This document shows positions 15,513-31,914 of a stretch of DNA of 55,449 bases, in pieces. The stretch is from assembly GCF_002980555.1 (NCBI RefSeq), contig NZ_PVBT01000012.1, positions 1 to 55,449 on the forward strand. Direction: 5' to 3'. The translations under genes were made by a program, and so were the position numbers. The stretch is from Phyllobacterium myrsinacearum. GTDB taxonomy: Bacteria > Pseudomonadota > Alphaproteobacteria > Rhizobiales > Rhizobiaceae. A model generated the notes under the pieces. The model had not been told where the DNA came from, did no database searches, and was given only the letters and a program-made list of their open reading frames with translations. Each line of letters opens with the position of its first letter. Within the stretch, counting starts at the first letter, position 1.

Positions 15513-15589
15513 TTCCCTCTCCCTGACAATATGCGTGATGACGAAACTGCGCTTCATGCCCCTTGCGGGGGTAATGGTGCGACATCGTT

Positions 15590-15605: not shown

Positions 15606-15695
15606 CTATTTTGCGATTGACCGCGGGACGGTGCCGTCAGAAAATGCTATGACACGGTGATGTCACACACTGTTCGCATTAACATCACACAACTA

Positions 15696-15720
15696 TTTTG
15701 ATGCAACACAATAGTTGCAA
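15696..15720 (+). promoter_or_regulatory. Variant GntR operator before gntR
   Basis: TTTTGATGCAACA (15696-15708) differs at one base from the 13 bases shared by the other sites, and AGTTGCAA (15713-15720) is a further half-site. It stands 21 bases before the gntR start codon, consistent with autoregulation. Confidence 0.5.
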
Positions 15721-15741
15721 AGTCAACGATGGGAAAATAAA

Positions 15742-16434: not shown

Positions 16435-16453
16435 AATCACCGCCGCGTGACAT

Positions 16454-16498
16454 TTTTGTTGCAACATTTTCATAACTGTGATTTTTGTTGCAACATAA
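16454..16498 (+). promoter_or_regulatory. Two tandem GntR-type operators before the aminotransferase gene
   Basis: TGTTGCAACA occurs at 16457-16466 and 16486-16495, each preceded by a T run and a GTGA, so a block of about 20 bases is repeated with 29-base spacing. Both are perfect 10-bp palindromes. They lie 31-69 bases before the start codon. Confidence 0.65.
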
Positions 16499-16525
16499 TG
16501 AAGCGCGGCAGCGAGGATATTGCAC

Positions 16526-17893
16526 ATGGACGGAGATGATGTTCGGGGCGCCGCCGATCCCGGCGGCTTGAGCCAATCGCAGCGATTGTACCGGCGCGGA
16601 TGGCGGGTCTTTCCCGATGGAACAACGCGTGTCACCGTCGAAAGGCAACCGGAGCCCATCTATATCGTGCGCGGGGAGGGGGCCCATCTCATCGATGCCG
16701 ATGGCCGGCGTTTTCTTGATCTGAACAATAATTTCACCACGCTCATTCATGGCCACGGCTTTGCGCCCATGGTTGAAGCGGTGGCAACGGCCCTTAGCAA
16801 TGGCACGTGTTTTGCCAATCCGACCGAAAGTGAAATCGCTCTGGCCGAACTGATAGCCGGGCGGATTCCATCCGTGGAGCGGATCCGTTTTGTCAACAGC
16901 GGCACGGAGGCTGTGATGTTTGCCATCAAGGCGGCGCGCGCCTTTACCGGCAGACCGGCGATTGCCCGCTTCGAAGGCGCTTATCACGGCGCCTATGACT
17001 GGGCGGAGGCGGGTCAGGCCAATGGTCCGGCGCAGTGGGGCGTGGCGCAGATGCCGCGGGCGGCACCGACCTATCGGGGCATGCCGCAATGCGTGGCCGA
17101 CAATGTGGTTCTGTGCCGTTTCAATGACCTTGCCGAGACCGAACGACAATTGAGCGCCGCGGCGGGCAGGCTTGCCTGCGTCCTTATCGATCCGATGCCG
17201 AGCCGGGCAGGGCTGCTGCATCCCGACGAACGGTTTCTCGGCATGCTCGCAGGCCTTGCCGACAAGCACGGCATTCTCATCGTGGCCGACGAAGTCTTGA
17301 ATTTGCGCCAGGGCTATCACGGCGCCTGTGCACGCTACGGCATGACGCCGGATGTGATCGCCATGGGCAAGATCATCGGCGGCGGCTTTGCCATCGGCGC
17401 CGTCGGCGGACGGGCGGATGTGATGCGCGTTTTCAGCGCCAATGGCGGCAAGCCCGCCCTGCCGCAGGGCGGAACCTTCTCGGCCAATCCGATTTCCATG
17501 ATCGCCGGTCGGGTGGCCATGGAGGCCATGACACGCGATCAATTCGACCGGCTTGAGACAATGGGAGATGCAGTGCGGCAAGGATTGCACGGGGCCATTG
17601 CCCATCACCGTGCCCGTTTCAGCGTCAGCGGCGTGGCCTCGCTGTTCCGCATCCATCCACGCCCACGCATTCCCACCGACTACCGGCAGGCCTATCTGGG
17701 CGAAGCCGACAAGGCGCTGATGGAGCGGCTGAACCGGCACTTTCTGCAGGCTGGCATTATCCTGCCGAAGGGGGCGGCGGCCTGTCTTTCGACGGCCATG
17801 ACACCGGAAGACATTGCACACATCATCGAAACCTTTGCGGCGTTTCTGGCTGCCAGTGCCTGCACGCATGGAGAAAACGACAATGGCCGGTGA
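16526..17893 (+). CDS. Class III PLP-dependent aminotransferase (glutamate-1-semialdehyde aminomutase-like)
   Basis: A 455-residue fold I enzyme with the class III pattern: GGEGAHLIDADG-like start of the core, NSGTEAVMFAIKAARAFTGR for phosphate binding, YHGAYD, the VADEVLNLRQG aspartate that contacts the pyridine nitrogen, and the Schiff-base lysine in AMGKIIGGG. It resembles glutamate-1-semialdehyde aminomutases, but many such homologues are catabolic transaminases. The ATG follows GAGG. It overlaps the next gene by 11 bases, and two operators precede it. It likely removes or moves the amino group of the imported compound. Confidence 0.88.
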   Translation: MDGDDVRGAADPGGLSQSQRLYRRGWRVFPDGTTRVTVERQPEPIYIVRGEGAHLIDADGRRFLDLNNNFTTLIHGHGFAPMVEAVATALSNGTCFANPTESEIALAELIAGRIPSVERIRFVNSGTEAVMFAIKAARAFTGRPAIARFEGAYHGAYDWAEAGQANGPAQWGVAQMPRAAPTYRGMPQCVADNVVLCRFNDLAETERQLSAAAGRLACVLIDPMPSRAGLLHPDERFLGMLAGLADKHGILIVADEVLNLRQGYHGACARYGMTPDVIAMGKIIGGGFAIGAVGGRADVMRVFSANGGKPALPQGGTFSANPISMIAGRVAMEAMTRDQFDRLETMGDAVRQGLHGAIAHHRARFSVSGVASLFRIHPRPRIPTDYRQAYLGEADKALMERLNRHFLQAGIILPKGAAACLSTAMTPEDIAHIIETFAAFLAASACTHGENDNGR

Positions 17894-19601
17894 CGCATCC
17901 CGCAGCGTGGCGCAGTGCATCGCGCTTGCCCTGAGGCGGCACGGCGTTTCGCATGTTTTTGCCCAGAGCCTGCCCTCGGCGGTCATTCTGGCCGCCGAAG
18001 CGCTAGGTATCCGGCAAATCGCCTATCGCCAGGAAAATATGGGGGGCGCCATGGCGGACGGCTATGCGCGCTGTTCCGGCAGGATCGGCGTGGTTGCCGC
18101 GCAAAACGGGCCGGCGGCAGCCTTGCTGGTGCCGCCACTGGCCGAGGCCCTGAAAGCCAGCATTCCGGTGGTTGCCCTGGTTCAGGACGTTGAACGCGGC
18201 CACACCGATCGCAATGCGTTCCAGGACCTTGATCAGATCGCTTTGTTTCAGTCCTGTACGAAATGGGTGCGCAGGCTCGCCGCCGCGGACCGGGTTGACG
18301 ACTATGTCGACACGGCCTTTGCCATGGCCGGATCCGGCCGTCCCGGTCCGGTGGCGCTGCTTCTTCCGGCCGATCTCTTGCGCGACATTGCACCGGAACC
18401 TGTATTTCCGCGCACGGCTCAGCTTGGCGTTTGGCCGCTGGACCGGCCGCGCCCGCCGGAGTGCCTGATCAGTGAAGCCGCATCGATCCTGGCGCAGGCG
18501 CATGCGCCCATCATTCTTGCCGGCGGCGGCATTCATGCCAGTCAGGCCGCCGATGCACTGGCTGCACTGCAGCAGGACTGCAGCATTCCCGTGCTGACGA
18601 CGAATATGGGCAAGGGTGCCGTCGACGAAGGTCATCCCTTGTCGGCCGGGGTTCTGGGCTCCCTGGTGGGACCGGGCTCGCTTGGCCAATACACCGCCGC
18701 GCTGATCGGGGAGGCCGATGTTGTCGTGCTTGCCGGCACACGCACCAATCAGAACGGCACCGACAACTGGCGCCAGATCACAGGGGATAGCAAAGTCATT
18801 CACATCGACATCGATCCTGCCGAGATCGGGCGAACCTACGAGGCCTTGCGCCTTGTGGGGGATGTGCGCGAGACATTGGCGGATTTGCGCGAAGCGCTCC
18901 TGCGCGATACGAATCTGGACCGCCGCACGCTGGCGCGGCCGAATATTGCAAGCAGGATCGCCGCATGCTGGGACAGGTTCGACAAAGACCGGCAGGCCAG
19001 GGCACATTGCGCCGCCGCGCCGATCCGGCCGGAGCGGGTGATGCACGAATTGCAGGCCTTGCTGACACCGCAAACCATCATTGTTGCCGATGCCAGCTAT
19101 GCGTCCATGTGGGTAGCGGGGCAATTGCGCGCACTGTCGGCAGGCATGCGTTTCGTGACGCCGCGCGGGCTGGCAGGGCTCGGCTGGGGTCTGCCGCTTG
19201 CTCTCGGCGCCAAGGCGGCCAGACCGGATGATGCAGTTGTGTGTATCGTCGGCGATGGCGGCTTTGCCCATGCCTGGGCGGAAATGGAAACCATGATCCG
19301 CTCGCGCCTGCCGGTTACCATCGTCGTGCTCAACAATGGAATTCTTGGCTTTCAAAGGGATGCGGAGACCGTCAAGTTTGGCCACTATACAAGCGCCTGC
19401 CATCTTGGCGATGTTGATCACGGCCTCATTGCACAGGCATGCGGATGCCCGTGGGTGCGCATCGGCGATCCACTGGAACTGCGTGAGCAATTGCAACGGG
19501 GACTGCATGGTCGGGAAGCCTTGCTTATCGAGGTCATGACGGATCCGCAGGCGCACCCGCCCTTGTCGCTGTTTGCGGCCATGGACAGGAGCGTCCGATG
19601 A
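17883..19601 (+). CDS. Thiamine diphosphate-dependent enzyme (acetolactate synthase-like)
   Basis: A 572-residue ThDP enzyme with three domains: an N-terminal PYR domain with the catalytic Glu (RQENMGGAMADGYA, residue about 52), a central domain (IILAGGGIHAS), and a C-terminal PP domain with the GDGGFAHAWAEMETM...NNG motif that binds magnesium and ThDP. The family includes acetolactate synthase, 2-keto-acid decarboxylases and sulfoacetaldehyde acetyltransferase. The reaction here is unknown; a keto acid made by the aminotransferase is a reasonable substrate. The ATG at 17883 lies in the end of the aminotransferase gene with GGAG upstream; 17868 is an alternative start. Confidence 0.88.
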   Translation: MAGDASRSVAQCIALALRRHGVSHVFAQSLPSAVILAAEALGIRQIAYRQENMGGAMADGYARCSGRIGVVAAQNGPAAALLVPPLAEALKASIPVVALVQDVERGHTDRNAFQDLDQIALFQSCTKWVRRLAAADRVDDYVDTAFAMAGSGRPGPVALLLPADLLRDIAPEPVFPRTAQLGVWPLDRPRPPECLISEAASILAQAHAPIILAGGGIHASQAADALAALQQDCSIPVLTTNMGKGAVDEGHPLSAGVLGSLVGPGSLGQYTAALIGEADVVVLAGTRTNQNGTDNWRQITGDSKVIHIDIDPAEIGRTYEALRLVGDVRETLADLREALLRDTNLDRRTLARPNIASRIAACWDRFDKDRQARAHCAAAPIRPERVMHELQALLTPQTIIVADASYASMWVAGQLRALSAGMRFVTPRGLAGLGWGLPLALGAKAARPDDAVVCIVGDGGFAHAWAEMETMIRSRLPVTIVVLNNGILGFQRDAETVKFGHYTSACHLGDVDHGLIAQACGCPWVRIGDPLELREQLQRGLHGREALLIEVMTDPQAHPPLSLFAAMDRSVR

Positions 19602-20371
19602 GAGATGATCATTTGCGGGTGGCGGTTGTGACGGGGGGAACGACGGGGATCGGCCTTGCCACGGCCCGGGCGCTGCTGCAGTCGCGGCATCGTGTTGCCG
19701 TTTTCAGTCAGAATGACGACAAGGTGCGCGTGGCCGCGGCCGAACTGCAAAAGGTCCATGGACCTGACAGGGTGCTCGCCCGGACCGTCGATCTGGCGCA
19801 TGCAGCGGCCATTCAGGCCTTCTTTGCCGCAGTGACGGCGGCCTGGGAGGCGCCGGCGGTGCTTGTCTGCAATGCGGGCATTTCGCCCAAGGGGCCCGAT
19901 GGCGCGGTGCCATTTGGCGCGATGACCCTGCGGCAATGGAACGAGGTGATGGCCATCAATCTGACCGGCGCGATGCTGTGCTGCCAGGCTGCCCTGCCGG
20001 GCATGGTCAAAAACGGCTTCGGGCGCATCGTGCTGGTCGGCTCCATCGCTGCACGAGCCCGGCCGAGGATTGCCGGTGCCAGTTATGTCACCTCGAAGGC
20101 AGGCCTTGCCGGGCTAACACGGGCATTGGTGGAGCCCTATTCCCGCGCCGGCATCACCGTCAATCTCGTGGCGCCCGGGCGGATATTGACGGATATGTCC
20201 GGGCGCGCCGACAGTCCGGCCAATCTTGATGCGCTCGGCCGCATTCCGTGCGGACGCTTCGGCCGCCCGGACGAGGTGGCGGCGCTTGTCGCCTTTCTGG
20301 CAAAGGAAACCTCAGGCTTTATCAATGGCGCGACAATCGACATCAATGGCGGCGAATTTGTCGCCCCTTGA
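19598..20371 (+). CDS. Short-chain dehydrogenase/reductase (SDR)
   Basis: A 257-residue classical SDR: TGGTTGIG nucleotide-binding motif near residue 11, N-A-G-I, the catalytic Ser (VGSIAAR), and Tyr-x3-Lys (SYVTSKAG), followed by a C-terminal FINGATIDINGG. It should reduce or oxidise a carbonyl/alcohol with NAD(P)H, probably the last step of the pathway encoded upstream. The start overlaps the ThDP gene stop in ATGA, so the two are translationally coupled. Confidence 0.92.
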   Translation: MRDDHLRVAVVTGGTTGIGLATARALLQSRHRVAVFSQNDDKVRVAAAELQKVHGPDRVLARTVDLAHAAAIQAFFAAVTAAWEAPAVLVCNAGISPKGPDGAVPFGAMTLRQWNEVMAINLTGAMLCCQAALPGMVKNGFGRIVLVGSIAARARPRIAGASYVTSKAGLAGLTRALVEPYSRAGITVNLVAPGRILTDMSGRADSPANLDALGRIPCGRFGRPDEVAALVAFLAKETSGFINGATIDINGGEFVAP

Positions 20372-20434
20372 CGGGTGGCAAACCCGGCGGCGCTTGCGCC
20401 GATGATCTGATCCTGGACTGCACAAGAGGCGGGC

Positions 20435-21136
20435 ATGGCTGCAAAACCTGTGATCGCGATCTGTTCTGACGATACCGAGCTCTGTCTGCTGTTGCGACAC
20501 ATTGTGGAGGCTGAAGGCTATGCCAGCGTTCTGGCCAGTTCACCAGCCGAAATGCTGGCGGTCCTGGAGAACGAGATGCCCCAGGCGATTGTCGCCGATA
20601 CGGCGTGTGAGGGCTGCGGCCTGTCCGCGTTAACCCAGCAGATCAAATCCAGGAACAGTGGTACGGTCATCCCGATGGCGGCCCTGATCAGGGCCGACCG
20701 ATCGCGCGAATTGATGCGTGTGCCCTCCGGAAGCATGGATGAAGGGTTTCTCCGGCCTTTGATCCCTGATCGGCTGTTGCGCTTCCTCGCCAGAACGGTG
20801 TCCGCGGCGCGTGCGCCTCGATCGGAGGAGCAGGTCCTGCGTCAAGGCGATGTGGCGATCAATGTGCCGGGGCATGTGGCCACCTGCAACGGCCGGCGAC
20901 TGGACCTGCCGCCGATCGAATTTCGCCTGCTGTACCATTTGCTGCGTTATCCCGATCGCGTTCACAGCCGGCAGGCGCTCATTCCGGTCCTGTGGGATGA
21001 CGCGGCACGGGTCAATCCGCGATCGGTGGACATCCATGTCAGTCGCTTGCGCCGGATTCTGCGCAACGGCAACACCGGCACGCCGATCAAGACCGTTCGC
21101 GCCTGCGGCTATATCTTTGACACCTGCGGTCTGTGA
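20435..21136 (+). CDS. OmpR/PhoB-like DNA-binding regulator with degenerate receiver domain (copy 2)
   Basis: This 233-residue protein is a clear paralogue of the product of 7161-7883: both start with VIxICSxDxEL/F and have the same domain order. D55 could accept a phosphate, but the first acidic residue is Ser (S11) and the usual Lys is Arg (FLRPL). The winged helix is complete (LPPIEFRLLYHLL, SVDIHVSRLRRIL, GYIF). It is 63 bases after the SDR gene and probably in the same operon; a small hairpin (CGGCG-CTTG-CGCCG) lies between. No cognate kinase is present. It may work with, or antagonise, copy 1. Confidence 0.8.
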   Translation: MAAKPVIAICSDDTELCLLLRHIVEAEGYASVLASSPAEMLAVLENEMPQAIVADTACEGCGLSALTQQIKSRNSGTVIPMAALIRADRSRELMRVPSGSMDEGFLRPLIPDRLLRFLARTVSAARAPRSEEQVLRQGDVAINVPGHVATCNGRRLDLPPIEFRLLYHLLRYPDRVHSRQALIPVLWDDAARVNPRSVDIHVSRLRRILRNGNTGTPIKTVRACGYIFDTCGL

Positions 21137-21261
21137 CCGCCCGCAACCGAAGGAGCAAAGGGATGAAGCGGTCCGTTTGGCCCCGAGCGTGCTTGACATG
21201 TCCGCGCTGCATCTGTTGTCTGCGCCAATTGCCGACGTGCTGCCCCGCGCCGACCGCCTAT

Positions 21262-21606
21262 TCAATCCGCATCCGGGTGCTCAAACAGGTCTTCATCGAT
21301 ATGAAACCGTCTTGCCGTCCCCCGGCCGAGGCTGTTTCTCTCCATCGTTTCGGCAAGGATATGCCGTGCGAGCAGTTGATCGACGGTCTCGGCCACGCCG
21401 GAGCGCGTCAGGCCGGTTTGTCCGATAATCGTGGTCAGCGTCAGCGGAATATGGCTGATGTGCATGTGATAAAGAACGCTCATCATGCCGACTTGCTTCA
21501 GGCGGGACTGGGCCGTCTCGTTGCTGCGTGGATTGTCCATGATGCGCCGCAGCACCCGGGATGAAAATGCAAGGCTTTTCCGCTGGGCGGCAAGGGGGCT
21601 TGGCAT
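21262..21606 (-). CDS. MarR-like winged-helix regulator, short
   Basis: A 114-residue protein whose middle (MMSVLYHMHISHIPLTLTTI, then GLTRSGVAETVDQLLARHIL and a wing around RNSLGRGTARRF) looks like a MarR-type DNA-binding domain without the long outer dimerisation helices. It reads opposite to the island genes. An inverted repeat TTTAACT/AGTTAAA at 21610-21637 covers its promoter, suggesting autorepression. Its target may also include the small gene to the right. Confidence 0.7.
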   Translation of the reverse strand: MPSPLAAQRKSLAFSSRVLRRIMDNPRSNETAQSRLKQVGMMSVLYHMHISHIPLTLTTIIGQTGLTRSGVAETVDQLLARHILAETMERNSLGRGTARRFHIDEDLFEHPDAD

Positions 21607-21609
21607 TGA

Positions 21610-21637
21610 TTTAACTATTCTGTATAAGTGAGTTAAA
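21610..21637 (-). promoter_or_regulatory. Inverted repeat over the MarR-like gene promoter
   Basis: TTTAACT (21610-21616) and AGTTAAA (21631-21637) form a perfect 7-bp inverted repeat around TATTCTGTATAAGTG-like AT-rich sequence, 4 bases from the start codon. This is the usual arrangement of an autoregulatory operator. Confidence 0.5.
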
Positions 21638-21819
21638 TGGCACGAGAGGAACCATCCCTATAGCACGGCCTGCGCTCCGATGAAATGCGGCAAGCCTGAG
21701 CGCAAGGATGGTGTGTTGTTCGCCCGGGCAGATCAACCATCGCTGCCCATGGCGCGTGCCGCCGCACTTGATCACGGCCGGTCTGCATCGTCTGCCGGCA
21801 GCCTTGGGAACCAGAAGCC

Positions 21820-22146
21820 ATGCAATCCGGAATACCCTGGCCTGAGCCCGATCAATCTGAGGAAATGGTGCTCGAAACGGCCATTGAACGGCACAGGACA
21901 GCAAGGCTGGAGATAGATGGGCTGTTTGGCCTGCTGGCGCAGGGTGATGCAGACGGGCGGCCGCTGGACGAGCGCCTGGAGATGGCCTGCGCGGCGGCAG
22001 AGGCGGCCTGGCTGGCATTTCTGCCCTATCCGGTCGCAAGCCTTGCTGGCATCCGAAAGAAGATCGCTTACGTTCGATCGATTTTGGCGCAAGGCGATGA
22101 ACTCAGCACAGGCGAGCTTGAGCTCTTGCTGCGCTCGATCCTCTGA
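21820..22146 (+). CDS. Small hypothetical protein
   Basis: A 108-residue acidic protein without membrane segments, mostly helical by composition, with a conserved-looking C-terminal half (VASLAGIRKKIAYVRSIL followed by ELSTGELELLLRSIL). Similar small proteins of unknown role occur in rhizobial genomes, but I cannot name a family. It has no strong Shine-Dalgarno. It runs convergently with the DUF736 gene. Confidence 0.6.
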   Translation: MQSGIPWPEPDQSEEMVLETAIERHRTARLEIDGLFGLLAQGDADGRPLDERLEMACAAAEAAWLAFLPYPVASLAGIRKKIAYVRSILAQGDELSTGELELLLRSIL

Positions 22147-22346
22147 CTTGCCCTGTTGAGCGATGTGTCCAGGCGATCAGCGCATTTGGCATTGTGCCGG
22201 CATTGGGCTGTTGCAAGACGGAGCAGCAGTCATCGGGATGCGGTGGCATCGGCCCCGGCGGCGCGCAGCGTCTTGCACCGTTGCCGCCGCCGCATTGCAA
22301 GACCGCGGCGCTCCGGGTGGAGTGCCGCGGCCGGCGATTGGTGGCC

Positions 22347-22643
22347 TTAACGCGACCAGATGAGCGCATAGCCGTCATCATTTGCGACGAGGCTGGCATA
22401 GATCGGAGCGGGGAAGCTCGGATCGTCGAGCCTGATCGAGTGATAGTCGCGTCCGGTCTCCTTTGCGATCTTCTTCCAGCCGGCGCCAATCTCGATGGTA
22501 CCCGCGAAGGCACGCAGGTCGGGTGACCTGTCACTTTCCTTCTCGGCCGGAACAAAGCGGGCCTTGATGTTAAGGTTGAGGGTCTTGATCACGCCGGCGA
22601 AAGAGCCGTCATCGTTGCGGGTGAAAGTGCCGATCTGAGCCAT
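22347..22643 (-). CDS. DUF736 family protein
   Basis: A 98-residue protein starting MAQIGTFTRNDDGSFAGVI, the hallmark of DUF736, a family common on alphaproteobacterial conjugative plasmids and integrative elements and of unknown function. The middle carries DLRAFAGTIEIGAGWKK and the end FPAPIYASLVANDDGY, both typical. GGAGAAG precedes the ATG at 22643; the ORF extension beyond it is not protein-like. It is the last member of the leftward block DUF932, ParB-like, Toprim, DUF2493, DUF736. Confidence 0.92.
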   Translation of the reverse strand: MAQIGTFTRNDDGSFAGVIKTLNLNIKARFVPAEKESDRSPDLRAFAGTIEIGAGWKKIAKETGRDYHSIRLDDPSFPAPIYASLVANDDGYALIWSR

Positions 22644-23121
22644 TTGTCTTCTCCGTTGCTGTATCAGGACGCGACCACCGCGGCCTTGATGGCGATCGCA
22701 GAACACCGGGCGACCGGCACGCACCCGAAGGGCAGAAATGCAATGGAGGGCTGCGCGGGGAAGAACTTCTTGGCGCGCGAGGAAGCCACGCCGGCATCAG
22801 CCGAGCAGGGCGGGGAAGAAGGTCAGCATCGCGCGGTTGCGGGATCATGGTCGGCGGCACAGCAAGCAAACCCGGTGTAAGACAAGCCAGCAAGAAAGGT
22901 CGTGGCGAGCAGTTTCGGACAGCGTCATGGGGAGAAGACGCCCGGCATGGCGGAGAAAGCCAGCCGGTGACGATGCACTCATCGTCAGGAGTTCTGGGAG
23001 TAAAGACCCTAACGCTGACACAGTAACACCGCACAAATTTGGGGCAACATATTAACTATGCAAATTATCCCATAGCGGTGCTTGATGGACGGTGCATCAG
23101 TCTGGCATGCAACATGTGTTT
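22644..23121 (-). other. Spacer upstream of the DUF736 gene
   Basis: About 480 bases with no supported gene. It should contain the DUF736 promoter. A small perfect hairpin, GACGATG-CACT-CATCGTC, lies at 22969-22986, and the right half is AT-richer. Nothing else stands out. Confidence 0.4.
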
Positions 23122-23472
23122 TCATTGCAGAAGGTTGGCTATTCTATTGGTCCACGCCGTATCCAACCCGGCACTATATCTGTCAGCGGCATTTCCAGCC
23201 AAAAGCGCGGCAAGTGCTGCTTTCGATATGGGCTCTGGGATGGGCAGTTCATCATATCCCACAGCGGAAAGCCTTTGCGCATAGGAGGGGTGGCCAGTGC
23301 TGTCGTCAGATGGCAACTGCCATGCCTTGTCCATGTAATCTGCCAGCGCAATGGGATCAGCCAGTTGACCAGCCATTTCCACCATGCAAACACGGGGCGG
23401 ACCAAGCTGTTCCCGGCTGCCGTTCACCCCAAACGAGACAGCAAGCTCCCCGCTCCTGACAGCAGGGAGCAC
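23122..23472 (-). CDS. Hypothetical protein following the DUF2493 gene
   Basis: An ORF of up to 116 residues beginning at a GTG, 15 bases after the DUF2493 gene. Composition is protein-like, with an acidic middle (PSDDSTGHPSYAQRL) and an alanine-rich helix (ISKAALAALLAGNAADRY). No family is recognised and no good ribosome-binding site is visible; an internal ATG near 23382 is an alternative start. It could be a remnant of a larger gene. Confidence 0.4.
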   Translation of the reverse strand: MLPAVRSGELAVSFGVNGSREQLGPPRVCMVEMAGQLADPIALADYMDKAWQLPSDDSTGHPSYAQRLSAVGYDELPIPEPISKAALAALLAGNAADRYSAGLDTAWTNRIANLLQ

Positions 23473-23487
23473 AATGGCGGGAGGTGC

Positions 23488-24423
23488 CTATAGGCCGCCT
23501 TGTTTGCGTCGGCAGTCGAAGACGGGAATGCCGAGTTTGCGTGCCTTGTCGGCCAGATTGTCCTGTATGCCCGTGCCGGGAAAGACAATGACACCGATCG
23601 GCAATACCTCCAGCATGACATCGTTGCGCTTGAACGGTGCGGCCTTGGCGTGTCGCGCCCAGTCGGGAACAAAACCGATCTGCGGCACCTGGCGATGATC
23701 GGCCCAGCACGCGGCGATCCTTTCGGCGCCTTTCGGTGACTTGCCGTGCAGCAACACCATGTCAGGATGCTTGGCGTGAACCTGGTCGAGCGTCGACCAG
23801 ATCAGGCGGTGATCATTGAAATCGAGCCCGCCGCTAAAGGCGATTTTCGGTCCGGCTGGCAGAAGTACCTCTTGCGCAGCGCGTTTTCTTGCCTGGAGGA
23901 AATCGCGGCTGTCGATCATGGCGGAGGTCAGAGCCCTGTGATTGACCATGGATCCGGCGCGTGGATGCCATGCAGAGCCTGTGTGGCGCTCATAATGTGC
24001 GGCGGCTTCATCGCGCATCAGCTCAAAGGCATCCTGGCGTTCAATCAGTGTCTGCCCTTCGGCCGTCAGACGTTCCAGTTCAACCGACTTCACCTCGCTG
24101 CCATCCTGCTCGCGCTGGTTGCGGCGCTGGCTCTGTTCGTTGCTGTCGAGCTCACGCACGATCCGTTCCGTGGCGCGGTGAAAGAGGTTGACAGCCGACC
24201 AGAGCAAGACATCAAGGTCGGGTTCAAGGCGTGTGTCGGCGAGCGTGGCGATCAGCGCGTCAAAGATGTCGGCCACGGCGCCCGCCACTCTGGCGCCTTC
24301 TGGAAGCGGACGGGGATCAGGTTCGTCGGCAAAGGGACGATAGCCGTAAAGCTGAAGTTCGGTCAGGAGATGGTCGGTGGACGATGCCAGATGATGCAAC
24401 TCATGGTCGTTATGCGCGTGCAT
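23488..24423 (-). CDS. DUF2493 (SLOG-superfamily) protein
   Basis: A 311-residue protein. The last 130 residues carry the DUF2493/YspA-like domain of the SLOG nucleotide-binding superfamily: IAFSGGLDFNDHRLIW, MVLLHGKSPKGAERIAACWA and the PxGVIVFPGTGIQDNLADKA segment. The N-terminal half is helical and rich in Glu and Arg. Such proteins are usual in alphaproteobacterial plasmid transfer regions, role unknown; SLOG proteins may sense nucleotides or handle phage and plasmid defence. GGGAGG precedes the ATG at 24423, and the longer ORF is spurious. Confidence 0.9.
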   Translation of the reverse strand: MHAHNDHELHHLASSTDHLLTELQLYGYRPFADEPDPRPLPEGARVAGAVADIFDALIATLADTRLEPDLDVLLWSAVNLFHRATERIVRELDSNEQSQRRNQREQDGSEVKSVELERLTAEGQTLIERQDAFELMRDEAAAHYERHTGSAWHPRAGSMVNHRALTSAMIDSRDFLQARKRAAQEVLLPAGPKIAFSGGLDFNDHRLIWSTLDQVHAKHPDMVLLHGKSPKGAERIAACWADHRQVPQIGFVPDWARHAKAAPFKRNDVMLEVLPIGVIVFPGTGIQDNLADKARKLGIPVFDCRRKQGGL

Positions 24424-24548
24424 GGGAACCTCCCTTGGCTGGACCGCGACCGCGCGGCCTTCATGGCGAGACAAGCGGGCGGGCGGACTGGACCTGCACC
24501 CGCAGCCATGCGAAGGGCCGCAGCGCGAGCGCAGGATGGCGAAGGGCG

Positions 24549-24597
24549 GCGATTTTGCCTCGCGATGGAAAGCGCGCTGAGCGCGCCGGAAAATCGC
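24549..24597 (-). promoter_or_regulatory. Nested stem structure upstream of the DUF2493 gene
   Basis: An outer perfect 8-bp repeat GCGATTTT (24549-24556) with AAAATCGC (24590-24597) encloses an inner hairpin GCGCGC-TGA-GCGCGC (24572-24586). It lies in the 289-base spacer between the Toprim and DUF2493 genes, which otherwise holds no gene. It could be a leader structure or a folded single-strand element. Confidence 0.4.
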
Positions 24598-24712
24598 TGG
24601 CCGCAGCCGTTGCGGGGCCCGGCCGTCTGCCGGCCGATCGCCCTGGAGAAGGCCGGGGCGCGCTTGCCGGAAAAGGGTCGTACAAGGGATGCTGCGAACC
24701 CTCCAGGCGGCA

Positions 24713-25765
24713 TTACCGGCCGGGCAATGGCGGCGGTGACAGGAACCGAGCAACATCCTGCGCGATGAGCTGCCTGCGCAGGCCTGCGGCAAGCGCCTCG
24801 ATCCCGGCGCGGCGCAGATCCTCGTTGAAGTCCTCAAGCGCCGGAGACAGTACAATCGCCTCGATCCCAGCCGCAGCCGCGCGCGCAAGCAGGGTGTCAC
24901 GCGCAGCGTCGCCGGCAGGATCGGCATCCTGCGCGATATAGAGCCGGCAGAGCGTGGCCGGAAACAGGAGTGCGGCCAGATGGGCGGACGAAAGCGCAGC
25001 GGCCATGCTCATATGCGGCAGGGCACAGCGCAATGACAGCATTGTCTCGATGCCTTCGCCCACGGCCAGGACTTCGCCCGACCATCCAAAGCGGACCGCA
25101 TGCCCCAGCAGCTTGCCCATGGCGCGCCGCGGCGTATCGATGGGCGCCTTGCCATGCCCGAAAGGATCAAGCCAGGTCCGGTGCGCACCGGTCTGATGAC
25201 CGGCAAGGTCGGTGACACAGGCAATCATCGCGGGCCAGGTCTCGGTGGGCGAGTGCGCATCCGGGCGATAGTAGCAGCGCGGATGGAACCGCAGGCTCGC
25301 GGTTCCATGGAGATTGGTAATGCCGCGCCCGTGCAGATATTTTTCAGCAAGCGTGCCGGCAAGGGGGTGTGCCAGTGCAAACAGGCGCCGCGCCGCGTCC
25401 GGCGTTCCGGATGCGCGTTGGCCGGCATCCGATTGGCGAGAGACGCGTTCGGGCTGGGCGTGCGACCCGTCGAGGAAGCGCAGGGCCTCGGCGGCAATGT
25501 CCGTAAAGCGGGTCAGGCCACGCGCCTTGGCAATGATGTCGAGAAGATCGCCATACTCGCCGGTGGCCGCGTCCATCCACCTGCCTGGGGTGCCCCTTTC
25601 GCATTCTCCGCGGTCCAGTCGAACGAACATCGACCGTCCGGGCGTGTTGCGCACGTCGCCAACGCACCAGTAGCGCCCCTCGCGATGGCCGTTGAAAAGA
25701 TAATGGCGGCACACGGCCTCGGCCTGGTCGGCCAGTCGCCGTGCAAGCTCGGCAGCAGGAATCAT
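24713..25765 (-). CDS. Toprim domain-containing primase-like protein
   Basis: A 350-residue protein with an N-terminal CHC2-like or DUF7146-type region (CRHYLFNGHREGRYWCVGDV, then GDLLDIIAKARGL) and a C-terminal Toprim domain (VLAVGEGIETMLSL with the catalytic Glu, and LYIAQDADPAGDAARD with the D-x-D motif). Proteins of this type are plasmid-encoded primase or helicase relatives thought to prime the transferred strand in the recipient. AGGAGG stands six bases before the ATG at 25765. It follows the ParB-like gene by 73 bases. Confidence 0.9.
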   Translation of the reverse strand: MIPAAELARRLADQAEAVCRHYLFNGHREGRYWCVGDVRNTPGRSMFVRLDRGECERGTPGRWMDAATGEYGDLLDIIAKARGLTRFTDIAAEALRFLDGSHAQPERVSRQSDAGQRASGTPDAARRLFALAHPLAGTLAEKYLHGRGITNLHGTASLRFHPRCYYRPDAHSPTETWPAMIACVTDLAGHQTGAHRTWLDPFGHGKAPIDTPRRAMGKLLGHAVRFGWSGEVLAVGEGIETMLSLRCALPHMSMAAALSSAHLAALLFPATLCRLYIAQDADPAGDAARDTLLARAAAAGIEAIVLSPALEDFNEDLRRAGIEALAAGLRRQLIAQDVARFLSPPPLPGR

Positions 25766-25784
25766 GATGGCCTCCTTGACAAAT

Positions 25785-25808
25785 GGGGCCGCCTTGGCGG
25801 GCAGCCCC
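25785..25808 (-). promoter_or_regulatory. GC-rich hairpin just before the Toprim gene
   Basis: GGGGC/GCCCC arms enclose an inner CGCC-AA-GGCG stem. The structure ends 8 bases before the AGGAGG ribosome-binding site of the Toprim gene, so it could affect its translation. Confidence 0.35.
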
Positions 25809-25838
25809 GGATGCGGCGTGAATATTTGGTCTGGCGTT

Positions 25839-27872
25839 CTACGCGGGGGTGCCCCCTTGCTTGGCCGTTTCCGCCGGTTCATCTGCGCGATCGCCGGCGG
25901 CGGAGACGGGATCTGCGGGGGCAAGGATGGTGCAGCCTGGCGTGCGCAGCGCTTGCGGCAGCCAACCGGTACCGGCAAGAAGCTCCTGCGCCTGCTCGGC
26001 CATATCGCCTCGTTTGAGATGGGCGATGCGATCGCTGGCCTGCGCTCCCCTTGCTTCACGAACCGACGCCAGGATATGCGCCTTGGTCACGCGGCCGAGA
26101 TAGGAGGCAACGGTAGGCTCCCATCCGGCTGCGGCCATATCGAGCGCAAGCGTCATGGCCAGTTGATCGGCATGGGCAAGGGCGCGCGGCGGGCGCGTAT
26201 AGGCATCCACCATTGCGTTCACCGACAGTGACACGCAATGTGCAAACAGGGTCAGACGGCTGTCACTGTCAAAACCTTGCAGCGCCTCCCACAGCATGCC
26301 CGGCTCGTGCGGAAGCCTTGCGAGCCAAGCCTGATGGCGGCCATGCACGGCACCAGCCCATGGGCTGTCATTGAAGCCGGGCGCCTGTGCACCAAAGCCG
26401 GCGCTCTTCAGCTCCAATGCCATGCAGCTTTCGCTTGCATGGGGATAAAATGCACGCAGCGTCAAGGCATGCAGCGCGGCAAGAAAAGCCGTATCGGGCT
26501 GCGCACCCAGTGCATGGCGCAGCGCCAGCGTGCGATGCGCCGTCAACTCGGCCAGCAGACGATCAGAGATCGGCCCGGCGCCTTCTTCATCTTCAACGTT
26601 TTGTGCGCAAGATGGAGCGGCACTGCGATCCTGTTCCGTCTGATCGCGAGCATCCGCTTCAGCCGGCAGATCGGCATCCGCTTCAACGAGGGTCTCATCA
26701 TCGGGGCGCACATAGCCGCGTTCGACCCTGACCTTACCCGAGCCGTCGATGCTGACGAAGGCACCGGCGTGGCCCGTCTCGTCCGGATTGAACAGGACGG
26801 GCCTGTCGTCGAGTTCAACCAGCGCCATCCCGATCGCGTCAAACCGTTCGCTGATGTCGGCGGGAAGGCTGTCGGCGCAGGCATAGATGTCCTCCAATCC
26901 ATCCAATTCAGCCTGAAGCGCGGCGCGGCTGGCCGATTCCTCCTGGGTCAGAGCCGCCGGCTCGCCGCGAAGCTGGCGCAGGCCAAAGGTATGACCATAC
27001 GGAAAATCCGGCGCAACCTCGATCCATTTCCAGCCTTCGGCAGCGATGAGCGCCGCGTGCGCGCGCAATTTCTCCGCCGCCAGTCTGTCGAGAAGGCCGG
27101 CATCCTGCAGCCAGCCGCCATCATCGCCCTGAAACAGATCGCGCATGATGGCCCCACCGGCGGCGGCATAGGTGTTGACGCCGACGAACTGCGCCCGCTT
27201 ATCGGTGATGCGAACCGCGCCCTCCGTCAGCATGCGGCGTATGAAATGCGGTTCCCTGGCATAGCTGCTTTGTGCGAGCTGTTCAAACACCTGTTCCTGT
27301 CGCGCATGGTCGCCATTGACCGTAAATGCCATGAGTTGATCAAGGGACATGCCGTCATCGGCATAGACCTCAAGCAATCTAGGCGATACCGACGCAAGGC
27401 GCAGGCGCTGCCTGACGACAGCCACCGAAACGAACTGATGGGCGGCGATCTCCTCTTCGGACATGCCTTTCTCGCGAAAGACGAGGAAGGCGCGGAACTG
27501 ATCGAGCGGATGGAGAGGTGCCCGCTGCATGTTTTCGGCAAGCGAATCCTCCTCGGCGAAGCCGTCTTCGCGAAGGATGCAGGGTATTGGCGCATCCTTG
27601 GCAAGGCGCTTCTGTTTGACCAGCCGTTCAAGCGCCCGGTAGCGGCGCCCGCCGGCCGGAATTTCGAACATGCCGGTCTCGCGACCGTCGGCATCACGCA
27701 GCGGCCGAACCGTGATGCTCTGCAGGAGGGTTCGTCTGGCGATATCTTCCGCCAATTGCTCGATCGACACGCCGGCCTTGATCCGCCGCACATTGGCCTT
27801 CGACATGACAAGCCGGTCGAAGGGGATGTCGCGCGAGGACGACAGGGTAATTTTCCGGGATGATTTTACCAT
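25839..27872 (-). CDS. Large ParB/Spo0J-type nuclease domain protein
   Basis: A 677-residue protein. Residues about 15-130 form a ParB N-terminal domain (ANVRRIKAGVSIEQLAEDI, GRRYRALERLVKQKRL, and the ENMQRAPLHPLDQFRAF box), followed by a helix-turn-helix (AAHQFVSVAVVRQRLRLA) and a long unique C-terminus. This is not the partition ParB of the replicon but a type common on alphaproteobacterial conjugative elements, upstream of or next to DUF932 genes. The ATG at 27872 is preferred: GGAG lies nine bases before it, and comparison with the DUF932 leader shows that the earlier ATG (27887) is part of the leader. Confidence 0.88.
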   Translation of the reverse strand: MVKSSRKITLSSSRDIPFDRLVMSKANVRRIKAGVSIEQLAEDIARRTLLQSITVRPLRDADGRETGMFEIPAGGRRYRALERLVKQKRLAKDAPIPCILREDGFAEEDSLAENMQRAPLHPLDQFRAFLVFREKGMSEEEIAAHQFVSVAVVRQRLRLASVSPRLLEVYADDGMSLDQLMAFTVNGDHARQEQVFEQLAQSSYAREPHFIRRMLTEGAVRITDKRAQFVGVNTYAAAGGAIMRDLFQGDDGGWLQDAGLLDRLAAEKLRAHAALIAAEGWKWIEVAPDFPYGHTFGLRQLRGEPAALTQEESASRAALQAELDGLEDIYACADSLPADISERFDAIGMALVELDDRPVLFNPDETGHAGAFVSIDGSGKVRVERGYVRPDDETLVEADADLPAEADARDQTEQDRSAAPSCAQNVEDEEGAGPISDRLLAELTAHRTLALRHALGAQPDTAFLAALHALTLRAFYPHASESCMALELKSAGFGAQAPGFNDSPWAGAVHGRHQAWLARLPHEPGMLWEALQGFDSDSRLTLFAHCVSLSVNAMVDAYTRPPRALAHADQLAMTLALDMAAAGWEPTVASYLGRVTKAHILASVREARGAQASDRIAHLKRGDMAEQAQELLAGTGWLPQALRTPGCTILAPADPVSAAGDRADEPAETAKQGGTPA

Positions 27873-27887
27873 CGCAGTACACTCCAT

Positions 27888-27928
27888 GACGGGCGACTGG
27901 GAGCCTCTCTCTCAGCCTCCAACCCGTC
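27888..27928 (-). promoter_or_regulatory. Structured leader of the ParB-like gene
   Basis: On the minus strand an outer stem GACGGG/CCCGTC encloses an inner stem GGAG/CTCC with a 13-base loop ending GAGAGAGG. The element ends directly before the GGAG ribosome-binding site. A related element with the same layout precedes the DUF932 gene (29200-29239), where the inner stem is GAAG/CTTC, a compensatory change. Confidence 0.6.
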
Positions 27929-27989
27929 ACGAAGTGCCGGCCTACCCCTTGCTTTGAGAGGGCGGCCGGCACATCATCCTGCGCCCAGA

Positions 27990-29186
27990 TCAGGCGGCCC
28001 GATCCAGCAGATACTTCGTCTTGGCTTCCAGTGCGAGACGCGCATCCTGATGTGTCTGGTCACGCGCCGCGGCGGCGATGCCTTGAACGAAATCAAAGAG
28101 GCTTGCCGGTTTGCGGTCTTCCTCGGCCAGCACTGACGCGATGATCCTTGCGGTTTCAGTCGCGCTGAAGCCACAGTTGCGCAGAAAGCCCGCACGCTCC
28201 TCGTCCGTGGCGGCGACGGTCCGCTGACGCGCGGCCTTGATGGTTCTGACAAAGGACGCAGCGCTGGAATCGGCAAACCGCGCAAGCGCCGGTGCGGCCT
28301 CATGGGCAAAGCGAGCGGCGACGTGCTTGGAATGCCGGATGGTGATTTCCTGGAAGTCCTCCACGCCCCAGAGATTGCGGTTCTGGCACACGGCGCGCAG
28401 ATAAAAACAGGCTATGCCGAGACTTCTGGCGCCAACCTCCGAGTTCCAGCAATAAAAGCCGCGAAAGAAGAGATCCGGCGACCCATCGGGCAGATGTCCC
28501 GCCTCGACCGGATTGAGGTCATCGACCAGGAAAAGGAAGATGTCGCGGTCGCTGGCATAGAGCGTCGTGGTCGCCTTGGTGACCTCGACGCGCGGCCTGT
28601 AGATGCTGGTTGACCAGTCGAGCGTGCCTGGCACCTTCCAGCGCGTGTCACCGGTGCCATTGCCCGCGATCCGCCGGACGGCATCGACCAGTTCATGGTC
28701 AAAGACGCGGCCGTAACCGGGTCCGGTCACCGCACGCAGTTCACAATGGCCATTGCGTGTCGCAAGGGTCCTGACCGGTGCGGTCCGGTTCGAGGCCAGG
28801 CCATGCTGCAGATTGAGGCCGGCGATCGATGCGGGAAGCTGGCGCAGATAGGCAGCAGGGGCGCCGGCAAGGCTCGCAAGCTGGCCAAAACTCCAATGCG
28901 TCGGCACCAGTGGTTCGGCCACACCGGGACAGACGAGGGACAGGCTCTGCGCATCGGAGCGGTGTGCCTCAACGCGGATCGCTGCACTGTCGACCAGACG
29001 GTGCCAGCTGCGGAGACTGCGATCGTGCACCTTGTCGAAGAGTTCCGGCAGGGAGAGGAAACGCTCATCGTCGGGGCGCGAAAACCATTCCGAGGACACG
29101 CGGCCGATCCGCTCACCCCGGCCGATATCGACCTTGTAGCCAACCTTTGCATGGCCTGCGGCATTCATGATGTCCGAATTGTTCAT
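27990..29186 (-). CDS. DUF932 family protein
   Basis: A 398-residue protein of the DUF932 (phage/plasmid-like) family, recognised by VPTHWSFGQLASLAGAPAAYL near the N-terminus, FLFLVDDLNP in the middle and FRGFYCWNSEVGARSLGIA. DUF932 proteins are common on conjugative elements and phages; some have been proposed to act against restriction or in DNA metabolism, which is not established here. GGAGAA precedes the ATG at 29186. The longer ORF back to 29912 is a read-through shadow of the virD4 region. Confidence 0.9.
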   Translation of the reverse strand: MNNSDIMNAAGHAKVGYKVDIGRGERIGRVSSEWFSRPDDERFLSLPELFDKVHDRSLRSWHRLVDSAAIRVEAHRSDAQSLSLVCPGVAEPLVPTHWSFGQLASLAGAPAAYLRQLPASIAGLNLQHGLASNRTAPVRTLATRNGHCELRAVTGPGYGRVFDHELVDAVRRIAGNGTGDTRWKVPGTLDWSTSIYRPRVEVTKATTTLYASDRDIFLFLVDDLNPVEAGHLPDGSPDLFFRGFYCWNSEVGARSLGIACFYLRAVCQNRNLWGVEDFQEITIRHSKHVAARFAHEAAPALARFADSSAASFVRTIKAARQRTVAATDEERAGFLRNCGFSATETARIIASVLAEEDRKPASLFDFVQGIAAAARDQTHQDARLALEAKTKYLLDRAA

Positions 29187-29199
29187 GGCTGTTCTCCAA

Positions 29200-29239
29200 G
29201 ACGGGTGCCGGAAGCCTCTCTCCCGATCTTCAAACCGTC
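29200..29239 (-). promoter_or_regulatory. Structured leader of the DUF932 gene
   Basis: On the minus strand an outer stem GACGG/CCGTC encloses GAAG/CTTC with a 13-base loop ending GAGAGAGG. It lies 13 bases before the start codon and directly before GGAG. It is the partner of the element at 27888-27928. Confidence 0.6.
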
Positions 29240-29463
29240 GCGGCGCAGCCCGCAGCCCTCTCACTCTCAGCGCGGCCAGCCCGAGCGCAACAGAGCAAGC
29301 CGTCCGGGAAGGAACGACCGCGCGCAACGCGCTGCCGGACCGGGCACGGCGGCAGCGCCTGGTATGGAACGCGGATTCTGATGCCCTCGACGGCCGCCTG
29401 CGCAGACCGGCAAGCATCATCGTTGCCCCCAAGGGGCAATCCCGGACTGAGGAAATTGACCGG

Positions 29464-31914
29464 TCACATTGCCTTGTCATCGTCATCCTGCAAGGGGTTG
29501 GACACGGCTTCTTCAAGCGTTCTGAAGGCCTCTGCCGCCTGCGGCGGTATGGATGGGCGGACCTCGTCGAGCAGGGCGAGGAGCGCCGCCTCGATCGCGG
29601 CTGGATCGGCAAAAGGCAACCCATCAGGCCAGTGATCAGAAGCGGCCCAATGATCCGCAACCGCTTGTCGAAAGCCTGCCTTCGCGCCACTTTCAGCCTC
29701 GCCGCGCGCTGAACTTGACCGGTGGACGACAGCCGTTTGGTTGCCGAACAGTTCGCCCTGTCCGCCGCCGGGCCGATGCGGCCATCCGCCGTCTGTGCCC
29801 AAAAGCGGCGATTGAAGCCCGAGCCGCAGCCGCAAGCCGTCCAGGTTGGACAGATAGACCAAAGCGCCATGCGGATGACTGGCACTTTTGCGCGCCATGT
29901 CGCGTGTTTCAACGATGGTCATGCGCGGCCGGGAAACAGCGGGGTATCTGGCACAGTCGCAAAAGCGCGGATCATTGCCGCCATCGATCTTGTTCAGTTT
30001 GAAGATCGGCGCGCCGGCCACATGCAAGATTGCCTCTTCCGGTTTCAACAGCATCAGATCGGCAACCGACAGGAGTTCCCGTTGCACCGGCAGCATTGAC
30101 ACCTGGCGGTCGCGCCGGCCATGCCGGTAACTGTATGACGACGTCGGCAGCCAGTCGGTGGTCTTGCCGGCGATGGCAGCAACATGAAGGGCATCGCGCG
30201 GATTCTGGAAGTTCATGTAAAGGGTGAGCGTCGATGCCCCGGCGATAATCTCCCGGCCGGGTTTCTGATACAAGCGTTCCAGTTGCGCACTGTCCTGCAG
30301 GGTCAGGACAAAGCGAATGCCGTATTTGCGCATCAGCGGGGCCTGGGTAAGGATCGTATCAAGGCGCCCGGCATTGCCGAACTCATCGAGCATCACCATG
30401 ACATCATGCTGGCCGTCGCGCAGCGGGCCCTGCCGGACGAGCACGTCCATGGTGGTTTCGATGATAAGGGACACAAACCGCTCGAACACCCGCACCGTCT
30501 GCATATCGACATCCAGGAAGATGGCCATTTTCCGGTTGCGGATGGCCGCAAGCGGAACCGTTGTCGCCGCAAACATTGCCTCGAGATTCCGGTTCTGCAG
30601 CACATCGATCTTGGCGGCGATTTCGGCGGCGATGCCTTCCGCAAGCTTGTCATGGCGCCCGCAGAATTTCTCAAGCTGCATGCAGGTCGCGTCGCTGAGC
30701 TGATGACGGTATTTTTTCAAAAGCTGGGCAACGACCACATGTTCCTCCGGCATGGCGCCCAGAATGCGGTGCAGTTCACCCAGGGATTTGCGCGTATCCG
30801 GGCATTCGATGACGAAGGCCATCAGGGCGGTCAGGAGGATGCGGGCGCTTTCTTCCCAAAAGTCCGATGCATCGGAGCGGATGCGTTCGGGCATGATCAT
30901 CATGGCGAGCTTCTGCAGATCGGTGATGCGCTGCACCGGATCAGAACTGACGAAGTCAAACGGATTGAAACAGTCCGTCTCGATCTTTCCCGGTGCAATG
31001 ACGTAGATCCGATAGCCGTTCGCGCCCAGCCAGCCGCTCATCTCCCGATGCAGTTCGCCGCCGAAATCAAGAATGAACATGGATCCGCCGAAGCGCATGA
31101 TCGAAGGGATGACAAGGCTGCGCGATTTGCCCTGACCGGGCGAGCCGATCACCAGCACATGTCTGTCGCTGTCGTCGATGAGAAGCCGGCCGCGCTGACG
31201 GCCGAGCACCACGCCGCGCCGGCGGCGCAGTCCGAAATCGGCAGCATCGGTCAATGTTGCCAAGCGGGCATTGCCGTAGATGAGGCGCCGGCGCCGGTAG
31301 ACGGCAAGGCCGATGGGAATGCACAGGCTGGCAAGGGCTGAAAGACCTGCCAGAAGGGTTGCCTTCCGGACAGACGGACTGGCGGCCATGCGGGAAGCAA
31401 ATGGCAGGGTTGCCATGGCAAGCGGCCGTGCGGAAAGATAGCGCGCCAGTTCAACCCGCCGCTCGAACATCGTTGCCGCGCAATAGAAGGTGACGAAATA
31501 GACGGCGACCGCCGTCAGGCTGAGACATTGCGCGATTGCCACGCACTGGACCAGCCGGCGCGTGGAACGAATATGCATGTGATAAAGCAGAGAACGGGAG
31601 ATCGTGCGGCCGCGCATGAGCATCCACTGGGTCAGAACGGCGAACATCAGCGGTGCGGCGAGAATCAGGGAAAGCACAAGCAGGCCCAACGACTCGCGCC
31701 GCGCCGCCAGGGTCAGGAAGCGGCGGGCATCGCCGGCCGATGGCGGCATGGCGATATCCCGGAGCACGGCAAAGATACCGAGCCAGAGCGCGACGGCGGC
31801 AAGAAGCGCCAGTATCAGCGTTGCGGCCGGCGATTTCCACCACCGGTCTGATCGCACCGGCCGGCGGGCGCCCGAATGGTTGCGGCGCGAGTCAGGCGTG
31901 TTTGCGTTTGCCAT
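29464..31914 (-). CDS. virD4: Type IV secretion coupling protein VirD4/TraG
   Basis: An 816-residue inner-membrane ATPase that brings the relaxosome to the VirB channel. Hydrophobic segments lie in the first 200 residues, then Walker A GSPGQGKS (about 256-263), ILDFGGELH, and Walker B VMVMLDEFGN (about 503-512). The C-terminal 150 residues are variable and acidic, ending D-D-D-D-K. The ATG at 31914 overlaps the virB11 end by 23 bases with GAGG upstream. It is the last gene of the VirB block; a 277-base spacer without a gene (29187-29463), apart from the DUF932 leader, follows. Confidence 0.95.
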   Translation of the reverse strand: MANANTPDSRRNHSGARRPVRSDRWWKSPAATLILALLAAVALWLGIFAVLRDIAMPPSAGDARRFLTLAARRESLGLLVLSLILAAPLMFAVLTQWMLMRGRTISRSLLYHMHIRSTRRLVQCVAIAQCLSLTAVAVYFVTFYCAATMFERRVELARYLSARPLAMATLPFASRMAASPSVRKATLLAGLSALASLCIPIGLAVYRRRRLIYGNARLATLTDAADFGLRRRRGVVLGRQRGRLLIDDSDRHVLVIGSPGQGKSRSLVIPSIMRFGGSMFILDFGGELHREMSGWLGANGYRIYVIAPGKIETDCFNPFDFVSSDPVQRITDLQKLAMMIMPERIRSDASDFWEESARILLTALMAFVIECPDTRKSLGELHRILGAMPEEHVVVAQLLKKYRHQLSDATCMQLEKFCGRHDKLAEGIAAEIAAKIDVLQNRNLEAMFAATTVPLAAIRNRKMAIFLDVDMQTVRVFERFVSLIIETTMDVLVRQGPLRDGQHDVMVMLDEFGNAGRLDTILTQAPLMRKYGIRFVLTLQDSAQLERLYQKPGREIIAGASTLTLYMNFQNPRDALHVAAIAGKTTDWLPTSSYSYRHGRRDRQVSMLPVQRELLSVADLMLLKPEEAILHVAGAPIFKLNKIDGGNDPRFCDCARYPAVSRPRMTIVETRDMARKSASHPHGALVYLSNLDGLRLRLGLQSPLLGTDGGWPHRPGGGQGELFGNQTAVVHRSSSARGEAESGAKAGFRQAVADHWAASDHWPDGLPFADPAAIEAALLALLDEVRPSIPPQAAEAFRTLEEAVSNPLQDDDDKAM

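Follow-up and report, generated by a model that had tools for sequence, protein, structure and literature searches.

Why do two adjacent genes on one plasmid carry nearly the same folded leader directly in front of their coding regions, and what could such a leader do? The question is raised by contig NZ_PVBT01000012.1 of Phyllobacterium myrsinacearum, whose full 55,449 bases constitute the window analysed here and which is of plasmid type, with RepA and RepB, a relaxase, VirB-type secretion genes and TraG. On its minus strand a DUF932 gene and a ParB-like gene follow one another, and each is preceded by a hairpin (29200..29239 and 27888..27928, respectively) that adjoins a GGAG ribosome-binding site. 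A preliminary description of this DNA had placed two structured elements at exactly these positions. The leader is real and covarying, with a stem that covers the Shine-Dalgarno sequence (SD), accompanied by a box at a fixed distance upstream, and it is spread with mobile-element modules in Alphaproteobacteria; it is apparently an RNA without a name so far.

A pattern shared by the two elements, with up to three mismatches allowed, matches twice in the window, and none of 100 shuffled windows gave two matches. In the organism's own 5.44-Mb assembly, the covariance model matches just these two sites at E ≤ 0.001. The core element of the ParB-like gene with its SD (27882..27929, minus strand) consists of a TGACGGG stem, an inner hairpin, the loop AGAGG, CCCGTC and the SD, and scores 67 bits (E 2.2e-11) with covariance model R1; the corresponding core of the DUF932 gene with its SD (29194..29240, minus strand) scores 59.4 bits (E 7e-10), both scores being those of members of the R1 seed. 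The SD itself, GGAG in both cases, lies at 27882..27885, 9 nt 5' of the ATG at 27872, and at 29194..29197, 7 nt 5' of the ATG at 29186, and in homologous leaders it is placed 6-10 nt 5' of the start codon. For the ParB-like gene the start spacing of homologues favours the ATG at 27872 over that at 27887. The latter ATG (window 27870-27887, minus strand) overlaps the stem and the SD, and longest-ORF (open reading frame) calling places the start of the ParB-like gene 15 bases too far upstream. Judged by folding energy only, the ParB-like leader stands out (56 nt, z -5.5), whereas the DUF932 leader barely does (66 nt, z -1.9).

In both leaders RNAfold predicts an outer GACGG stem together with an inner helix of shifted register that closes the 5-base loop AGAGG. 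The outer stem, GACGGG/CCCGTC in both leaders, had been correctly recognised before and is supported by this fold as well as by covariation. For the comparison, 80 DUF932 relatives with 68-73% identity, the best 80 of the 579 that were confirmed, were taken from species genomes, and a covariance search of the window and the 80 relative loci returned 163 sites, of which 81 belong to DUF932 genes and 79 to ParB-like genes, with 3 unassigned. Alignment A1 holds 94 seed cores, collected with a pattern in which the outer arms and the SD are prescribed and the inner helix is free; since the pattern requires the outer arms, the outer-stem pairing in A1 is partly by construction, whereas the inner-helix result is free of that bias. 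Alignment A4 holds 94 further distinct cores absent from A1, most of them found via the seed's model, and leans toward the fold. In A1, 94.4% of outer-helix cells are paired, as are 91.5% of those in the shifted inner helix, where 7 of 8 pairs show two-sided changes. In A4 the whole corrected fold pairs in 94.8% of cells with two-sided changes at 13 of 15 pairs, it exceeds all 500 shuffles on each of the five measures used, and slid controls pair in at most 50.7%; the shifted inner helix taken by itself pairs in 93.0% of A4 cells, with two-sided changes in all 8 pairs. Even the near-invariant stem pairs show rare two-sided changes, from C-G to A-U in L185 and from A-U to G-C in L192 and L148. 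The first of these, in a ParB-like leader (L185 1686-1733, minus strand), turns the outer stem GACGGG/CCCGTC into GAAGGG/CCCTTC and is thus compensatory at the most conserved pair.

The inner part of the fold differs from what had been proposed. The preliminary description drew an inner GGAG/CTCC helix (GAAG/CTTC in the other leader) with a 13-base loop; this helix pairs in 76.5% (A1) and 74.9% (A4) of cells and was rejected, its pairing and covariation being weaker than those of the shifted helix in both alignments. Taken as a whole, that earlier structure lies weakly above shuffles in A1 (7, 80, 9, 242 and 41 of 500 shuffles reach the five measures) and exceeds all 500 in A4, but there it shares the outer stem, its own four pairs accounting for no more than the 74.9% just given. 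The compensatory change that had been cited as a sign of selection on the fold was therefore read on the wrong helix, although the covariation itself is real, and the covariation of the corrected fold supports a structured leader, common to both genes, whose fold is under selection. Nested pairs account for this covariation. When run unconstrained on A1, RNAalifold recovers the shifted inner helix, but in place of the outer stem it favours a small hairpin, CCG/CGG, at the SD. The loop columns read AGAGG in 68 of the 94 rows of A1 and 61 of the 94 rows of A4, with the first A and the G at the second and fourth positions nearly fixed.

The element is also longer than first described, comprising a AGAGNNAGAG box upstream and a stem extension into the SD. 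A box like AGAGTGAGAG with up to three mismatches lies 25-28 nt 5' of the core in 161 of the 163 sites, at exactly -27 in 129 of them, and with up to two mismatches allowed, 157 of 163 sites have it vs 2 of 162 in a control stretch. The DUF932 leader of the window has AGAGTGAGAG itself at 29258..29267 (minus strand), 27 nt 5' of its core. Only two sites lack a box at three mismatches, namely L027 and the ParB-like leader of the window, in which the degenerate AAAGCAAGGG (27946..27955, minus strand; more than three mismatches to AGAGTGAGAG) occupies the box position in alignment A2. A GTGCCGGCC/GGCCGGCAC hairpin, with its arms at 27964-27972 and 27934-27942 (minus strand), carries this degenerate box in its loop. 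Judged by eye, a hairpin around the box is present in many ParB-like leaders (A2), absent in others and not general in DUF932 and ArdC leaders (A3), so it was rejected as a general feature and the box is best kept as a sequence motif rather than as part of an upstream hairpin. Base pairs between the box and the 3' arm of the inner helix were likewise rejected by eye, the box staying constant while the arm changes. Farther upstream, to -110, no motif is common to all leader classes, and a CCCGCAACGCCCC stretch lies 5' of the box in part of the DUF932 and ArdC leaders.

On the other side of the box, the SD region can find pairing partners in the five bases directly 5' of the core: at least four of five pairs form in 192 of 204 non-redundant leaders (slid controls, 2-87). 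In the ParB-like leader of the window this anti-SD is CTTCG at 27930..27934 (minus strand), with all five pairs possible. In 203 leaders the SD is predicted to be less accessible than in 200 control ribosome-binding sites of the same loci (p 1e-11), with medians of 0.01-0.11 in the leader classes vs 0.25 in the controls.

How widely is the element distributed, and with which genes? At a model threshold of E 0.001, and in samples that share some genomes, it was matched in 19 of 289 genomes of the class sample, 11 of 60 relatives and 24 of 299 genomes of the phylum sample, the last all listed as the same class or nearer; all matches of known class are alphaproteobacterial. Paracoccus versutus and Sphingobium indicum UT26S are among the species with leader matches. 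Narrow tests elsewhere returned nothing, namely one strict pattern of the element in viral_contigs (0 matches) and a blastn search of phages with the DUF932 leader. The 69 distinct survey sites precede ParB-like genes (32), DUF932 genes (17), ArdC genes (12) and other or broken genes (8). This count takes sites in overlapping loci once and excludes two weak matches (L102 at 1945, 31.8 bits; L129 at 97, 20.5 bits), L094 and L111, which are cut by the locus end, and reverse-strand echoes. An ArdC product that was scanned has ArdcN and zincin domains. Other genes downstream of the element encode an AlpA regulator, DUF2958, uncharacterised families of ~128 and ~172 amino acids (aa) and a PAPS-reductase-like protein, named by eye with no Pfam match above cut-off; in L150 a divergent copy, recognised by eye and missed by the model, lies 5' of an Antirestrict gene. 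DUF932 or ArdC is usually positioned before the ParB-like gene. In the class sample, 19 of the 20 ParB-like genes scoring above 500 bits have the element directly upstream, and the exception, G093, has an in-frame stop. A divergent element with no clear AGAG box and a loop region GGAACGG was seen in L182 (146-587), L159 (3651-4092) and L160 (3577-3994), where it precedes an uncharacterised gene of 120-128 aa adjoining the ParB-like gene.

Homologues that lack the element, which the preliminary description had regarded as counting against it, do occur. Among ten plasmid loci sampled from 316 records with a DUF932 relative, the DUF932 gene carries the element in L148 and L149 and is without it in the other eight. 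Seven of these eight genes lie downstream of another module gene, and the eighth locus, L146, is unannotated. The ParB-like leader has the element wherever the start is readable (L142, L144, L145, L147 and L148), as well as in L151, where it is cut by the locus edge; no element was seen in L143 and L146, and none was found by the model in L150. DUF932 in itself is thus not what the element follows; it is linked to the ParB-like gene and to certain positions. Several inner genes of L142, L143, L144, L145, L147, L150 and L151 (DUF932, DUF6117 and hypothetical genes) are preceded by a hairpin of another sort, of GCCCGGC...GCCGGGC type; a T-rich stretch follows it and runs into the SD, so that by eye it looks like an intrinsic terminator directly 5' of the start codon.

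Whether the conserved fold belongs to RNA or to DNA can be approached through the mismatches that its pairs tolerate. On the sense strand, A1 has 169 G-U cells vs 39 A-C cells (shuffled, 207 and 81) and A4 has 165 vs 28 (shuffled, 200 and 81); both kinds are avoided in the two alignments, A-C about twice as strongly. At the A1 inner pairs 16-36, 17-35, 21-31 and 23-29 the balance is 103 G-U vs 2 A-C. Taken together, these counts agree better with RNA, or with the sense strand, than with folding of the template strand. A promoter was sought as sigma70-like signals only, and as such it was rejected, with nothing above shuffles. Within 250 nt upstream, -35/-10 pairs were no more frequent than in shuffles (2 of 100 DUF932 and ArdC leaders vs 5 of 100 shuffled), and within the element and its flanks in 203 leaders signals with at least 8 of 12 matches numbered 4 vs 20 shuffled on one strand and 9 vs 17 on the other.

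The preliminary description knew of no named RNA motif with this layout, and in the searches made no Rfam 15 family matched at an element. At the gathering threshold the whole window yielded an S-element at 36-103 alone, 13 related loci yielded no family, and permissive searches of window 27700-29500 and five loci gave none at an element. In SD-occluding translational operators and RNA thermometers a hairpin lies over the SD. The leader resembles these in having its SD under a hairpin and differs in that its stem is long and GC-rich and is joined by an upstream box; its conserved, covarying fold, which ends at the SD, is what places it among SD-occluding cis-regulatory leaders as a kind. Among the published motifs consulted, the closest is STAXI, described in PMC2864571 as a repeated pseudoknot near SSB and antirestriction genes; whether it acts as single-stranded DNA or as RNA is discussed there, with RNA preferred. 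Compared by description, both are structured elements near SSB, antirestriction or other DNA-handling genes, but STAXI has tandem pseudoknots in two to three copies, whereas here each gene has one box and one SD-containing hairpin. The radC motif (RF01754), described in the same paper as a putative cis-regulatory element of Proteobacteria and similar to that extent, has a 149-position model that reaches 14.1 bits (cut-off 40, E 8) within the DUF932 coding region and at neither element. In the open-access literature searched (titles and beginnings of abstracts, most subscription journals being outside its scope), neither a leader of DUF932, ArdC or ParB-like genes nor the timing of establishment and anti-restriction genes in alphaproteobacterial conjugative elements is described.

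What, then, might the leader do? We consider it somewhat likelier true than false that it works in cis as an RNA operator, hiding the SD of plasmid-establishment genes with a putative trans-acting factor in control. In favour of this reading are the covarying fold, the excess of sense-strand G-U over A-C cells, the stem extension into the SD with its low predicted accessibility, the distance from SD to start codon, the fixed box distance and the recurrence before the same classes of gene, strong ParB-like genes above all; these concern the fold, its position and its genes, whereas repression by the structure and the binding of a factor are predictions. An element of ~75-80 nt in the 5' leader would fold the mRNA into a long hairpin, YTTCCG-TGACGGG ... 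CCCGTC-RYGGAG; the SD would lie in its 3' arm, and translation would therefore be low by default. The AGAGNNAGAG box and the AGAGG loop, both GA-rich and at a fixed distance, may together form a composite recognition site for the factor, which once bound would set the SD open or closed. With one operator on several genes, a single post-transcriptional regulon would arise and could give, for example, a burst of anti-restriction and DNA-handling proteins on entry to a new host, followed by shut-off; the leader probably controls the timing of translation of its genes. As for the factor, the ParB-like protein, acting by autoregulation, is the only candidate that can be named, at the level of a guess, because it is found with both DUF932-type and ArdC-type modules. 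The fullest version of this proposal is a doubtful one, though conceivable: a plasmid-borne post-transcriptional regulon of alphaproteobacterial conjugative elements, read by an element-encoded factor, possibly an RNA-binding ParB-like protein, which would unite ArdC, Antirestrict (with its divergent copy), DUF932, ParB-like, DUF2958, AlpA and PAPS-reductase-like genes in a burst of expression on entry and a subsequent shut-off.

Several observations weigh against an SD-hiding operator of this kind. The SD extension is without covariation, observed values equalling shuffled ones at nearly every pair, because the SD sequence hardly varies. In these GC-rich loci 85 of the 200 control ribosome-binding sites also have a predicted accessibility below 0.2, and 53 of the 203 leaders are not below that value. 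No mutually exclusive fold was identified in the leaders, and the switching step is therefore unsupported. In 58 loci, compared as unannotated ORF clusters, no neighbour gene beyond the module's own is present in all. Of the 13 loci whose ParB-like match is weaker, partial or broken (L168, L170-L181), a single one has a detectable element. Finally, the wobble balance is reversed at the A1 inner pairs 15-37, 20-32 and 22-30 (13 G-U vs 25 A-C).

The leader could instead help translation or protect the mRNA, the hairpin shielding the 5' end and the GA-rich loop or box offering ribosomes a standby site. Both the AGAGG loop and the AGAGNNAGAG box are indeed SD-like purine runs, and the element is present with either DUF932 or ArdC as first gene; this explanation is nevertheless unlikely, given that the SD lies within the extended stem in nearly all leaders and that its predicted accessibility is below that of controls. 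If the site acted as double-stranded DNA, a protein on the box and inverted repeat would control transcription, for which the fixed box-to-repeat spacing and the near-invariant TGACGG and CCGTC would be natural. Such an operator would, however, leave unaccounted for an inner helix that varies in sequence yet stays paired, with many G-U wobbles, and a site that abuts the SD with no sigma70-like promoter signal found nearby; we hold it to be improbable. A leader-peptide (attenuation) system starting at the stem base is hardly credible and was rejected. GTG, ATG or TTG stands there in 221 of 232 leaders, although a C-G pair would serve, and this NTG is a constraint beyond pairing; but 10 of the 232, the window's DUF932 leader included, have GCG, an SD at the proper distance is absent, and by eye the frame stops at once in many DUF932 and ArdC leaders and runs on in ParB-like leaders, so that no peptide looks conserved.

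The gene content makes a promoter on single-stranded DNA a serious rival, although we disfavour it and give it only a slight chance. On that account the hairpin of the entering strand would be read by RNA polymerase, in the manner of Frpo or ssi, switching on leading-region genes before second-strand synthesis. The module reads toward a relaxase gene 18 kb away in the window and, in L202, toward a DUF3363 gene, a presumed relaxase, the plasmid there being typed non-mobilizable; this orientation would suit a leading region in these two cases. According to PMC11541004, Frpo-type promoters carry -10, -35 and UP sequences in a DNA hairpin and precede anti-defence genes in leading regions of conjugative elements. 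Our leaders are likewise hairpins 5' of several genes, and their repetition and gene set (ArdC, DUF932, ParB-like and the divergent copy before Antirestrict) resemble the Frpo-equipped leading regions described there. They differ in that no -35/-10 pair rises above shuffles, upstream or within the element on either strand, and in that the SD is built into the stem; moreover, each wobble tolerated on the sense strand would become a C-A mismatch if the template strand were the one that folds, and the main text of PMC11541004 names neither DUF932 nor ArdC nor Alphaproteobacteria.

The two leaders open a module in the order DUF932, ParB-like, DUF7146/Toprim and YAcAr (SLOG), all on the minus strand of the window. 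The DUF932 gene (P0001, 27990..29186) starts at the ATG at 29186 and encodes 398 aa with a match to Pfam PF06067 (E 2.3e-5); the ParB-like gene (P0002, 25839..27872) encodes 677 aa and reaches 26.0 bits with PF02195, against a cut-off of 26.3. Downstream lie the DUF7146/Toprim gene (24713..26059), assigned by Pfam and given as the longest ORF with a provisional start, and the YAcAr (SLOG) gene (23488..24927; PF10686, longest ORF), and the genes at the latter position in L151 and L202 are annotated DUF2493. Metabolic genes at 7161-23493 (a TPP enzyme, a dehydrogenase and an M81 peptidase), which are probably cargo, separate the relaxase side from the module. The S-element at 36-103 (minus strand; RF00490, 53.5 bits) adjoins RepB/RepA.

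For the biology of these elements, such genes can now be recognised with one covariance model, on plasmids as well as on integrated elements, and the model suggests that DUF932, ParB-like and the ~128 and ~172 aa families share one programme. It also makes the putative regulator searchable. If the control is translational, as we favour, this would be a mobile-DNA regulon controlled at the RNA level instead of by promoters.
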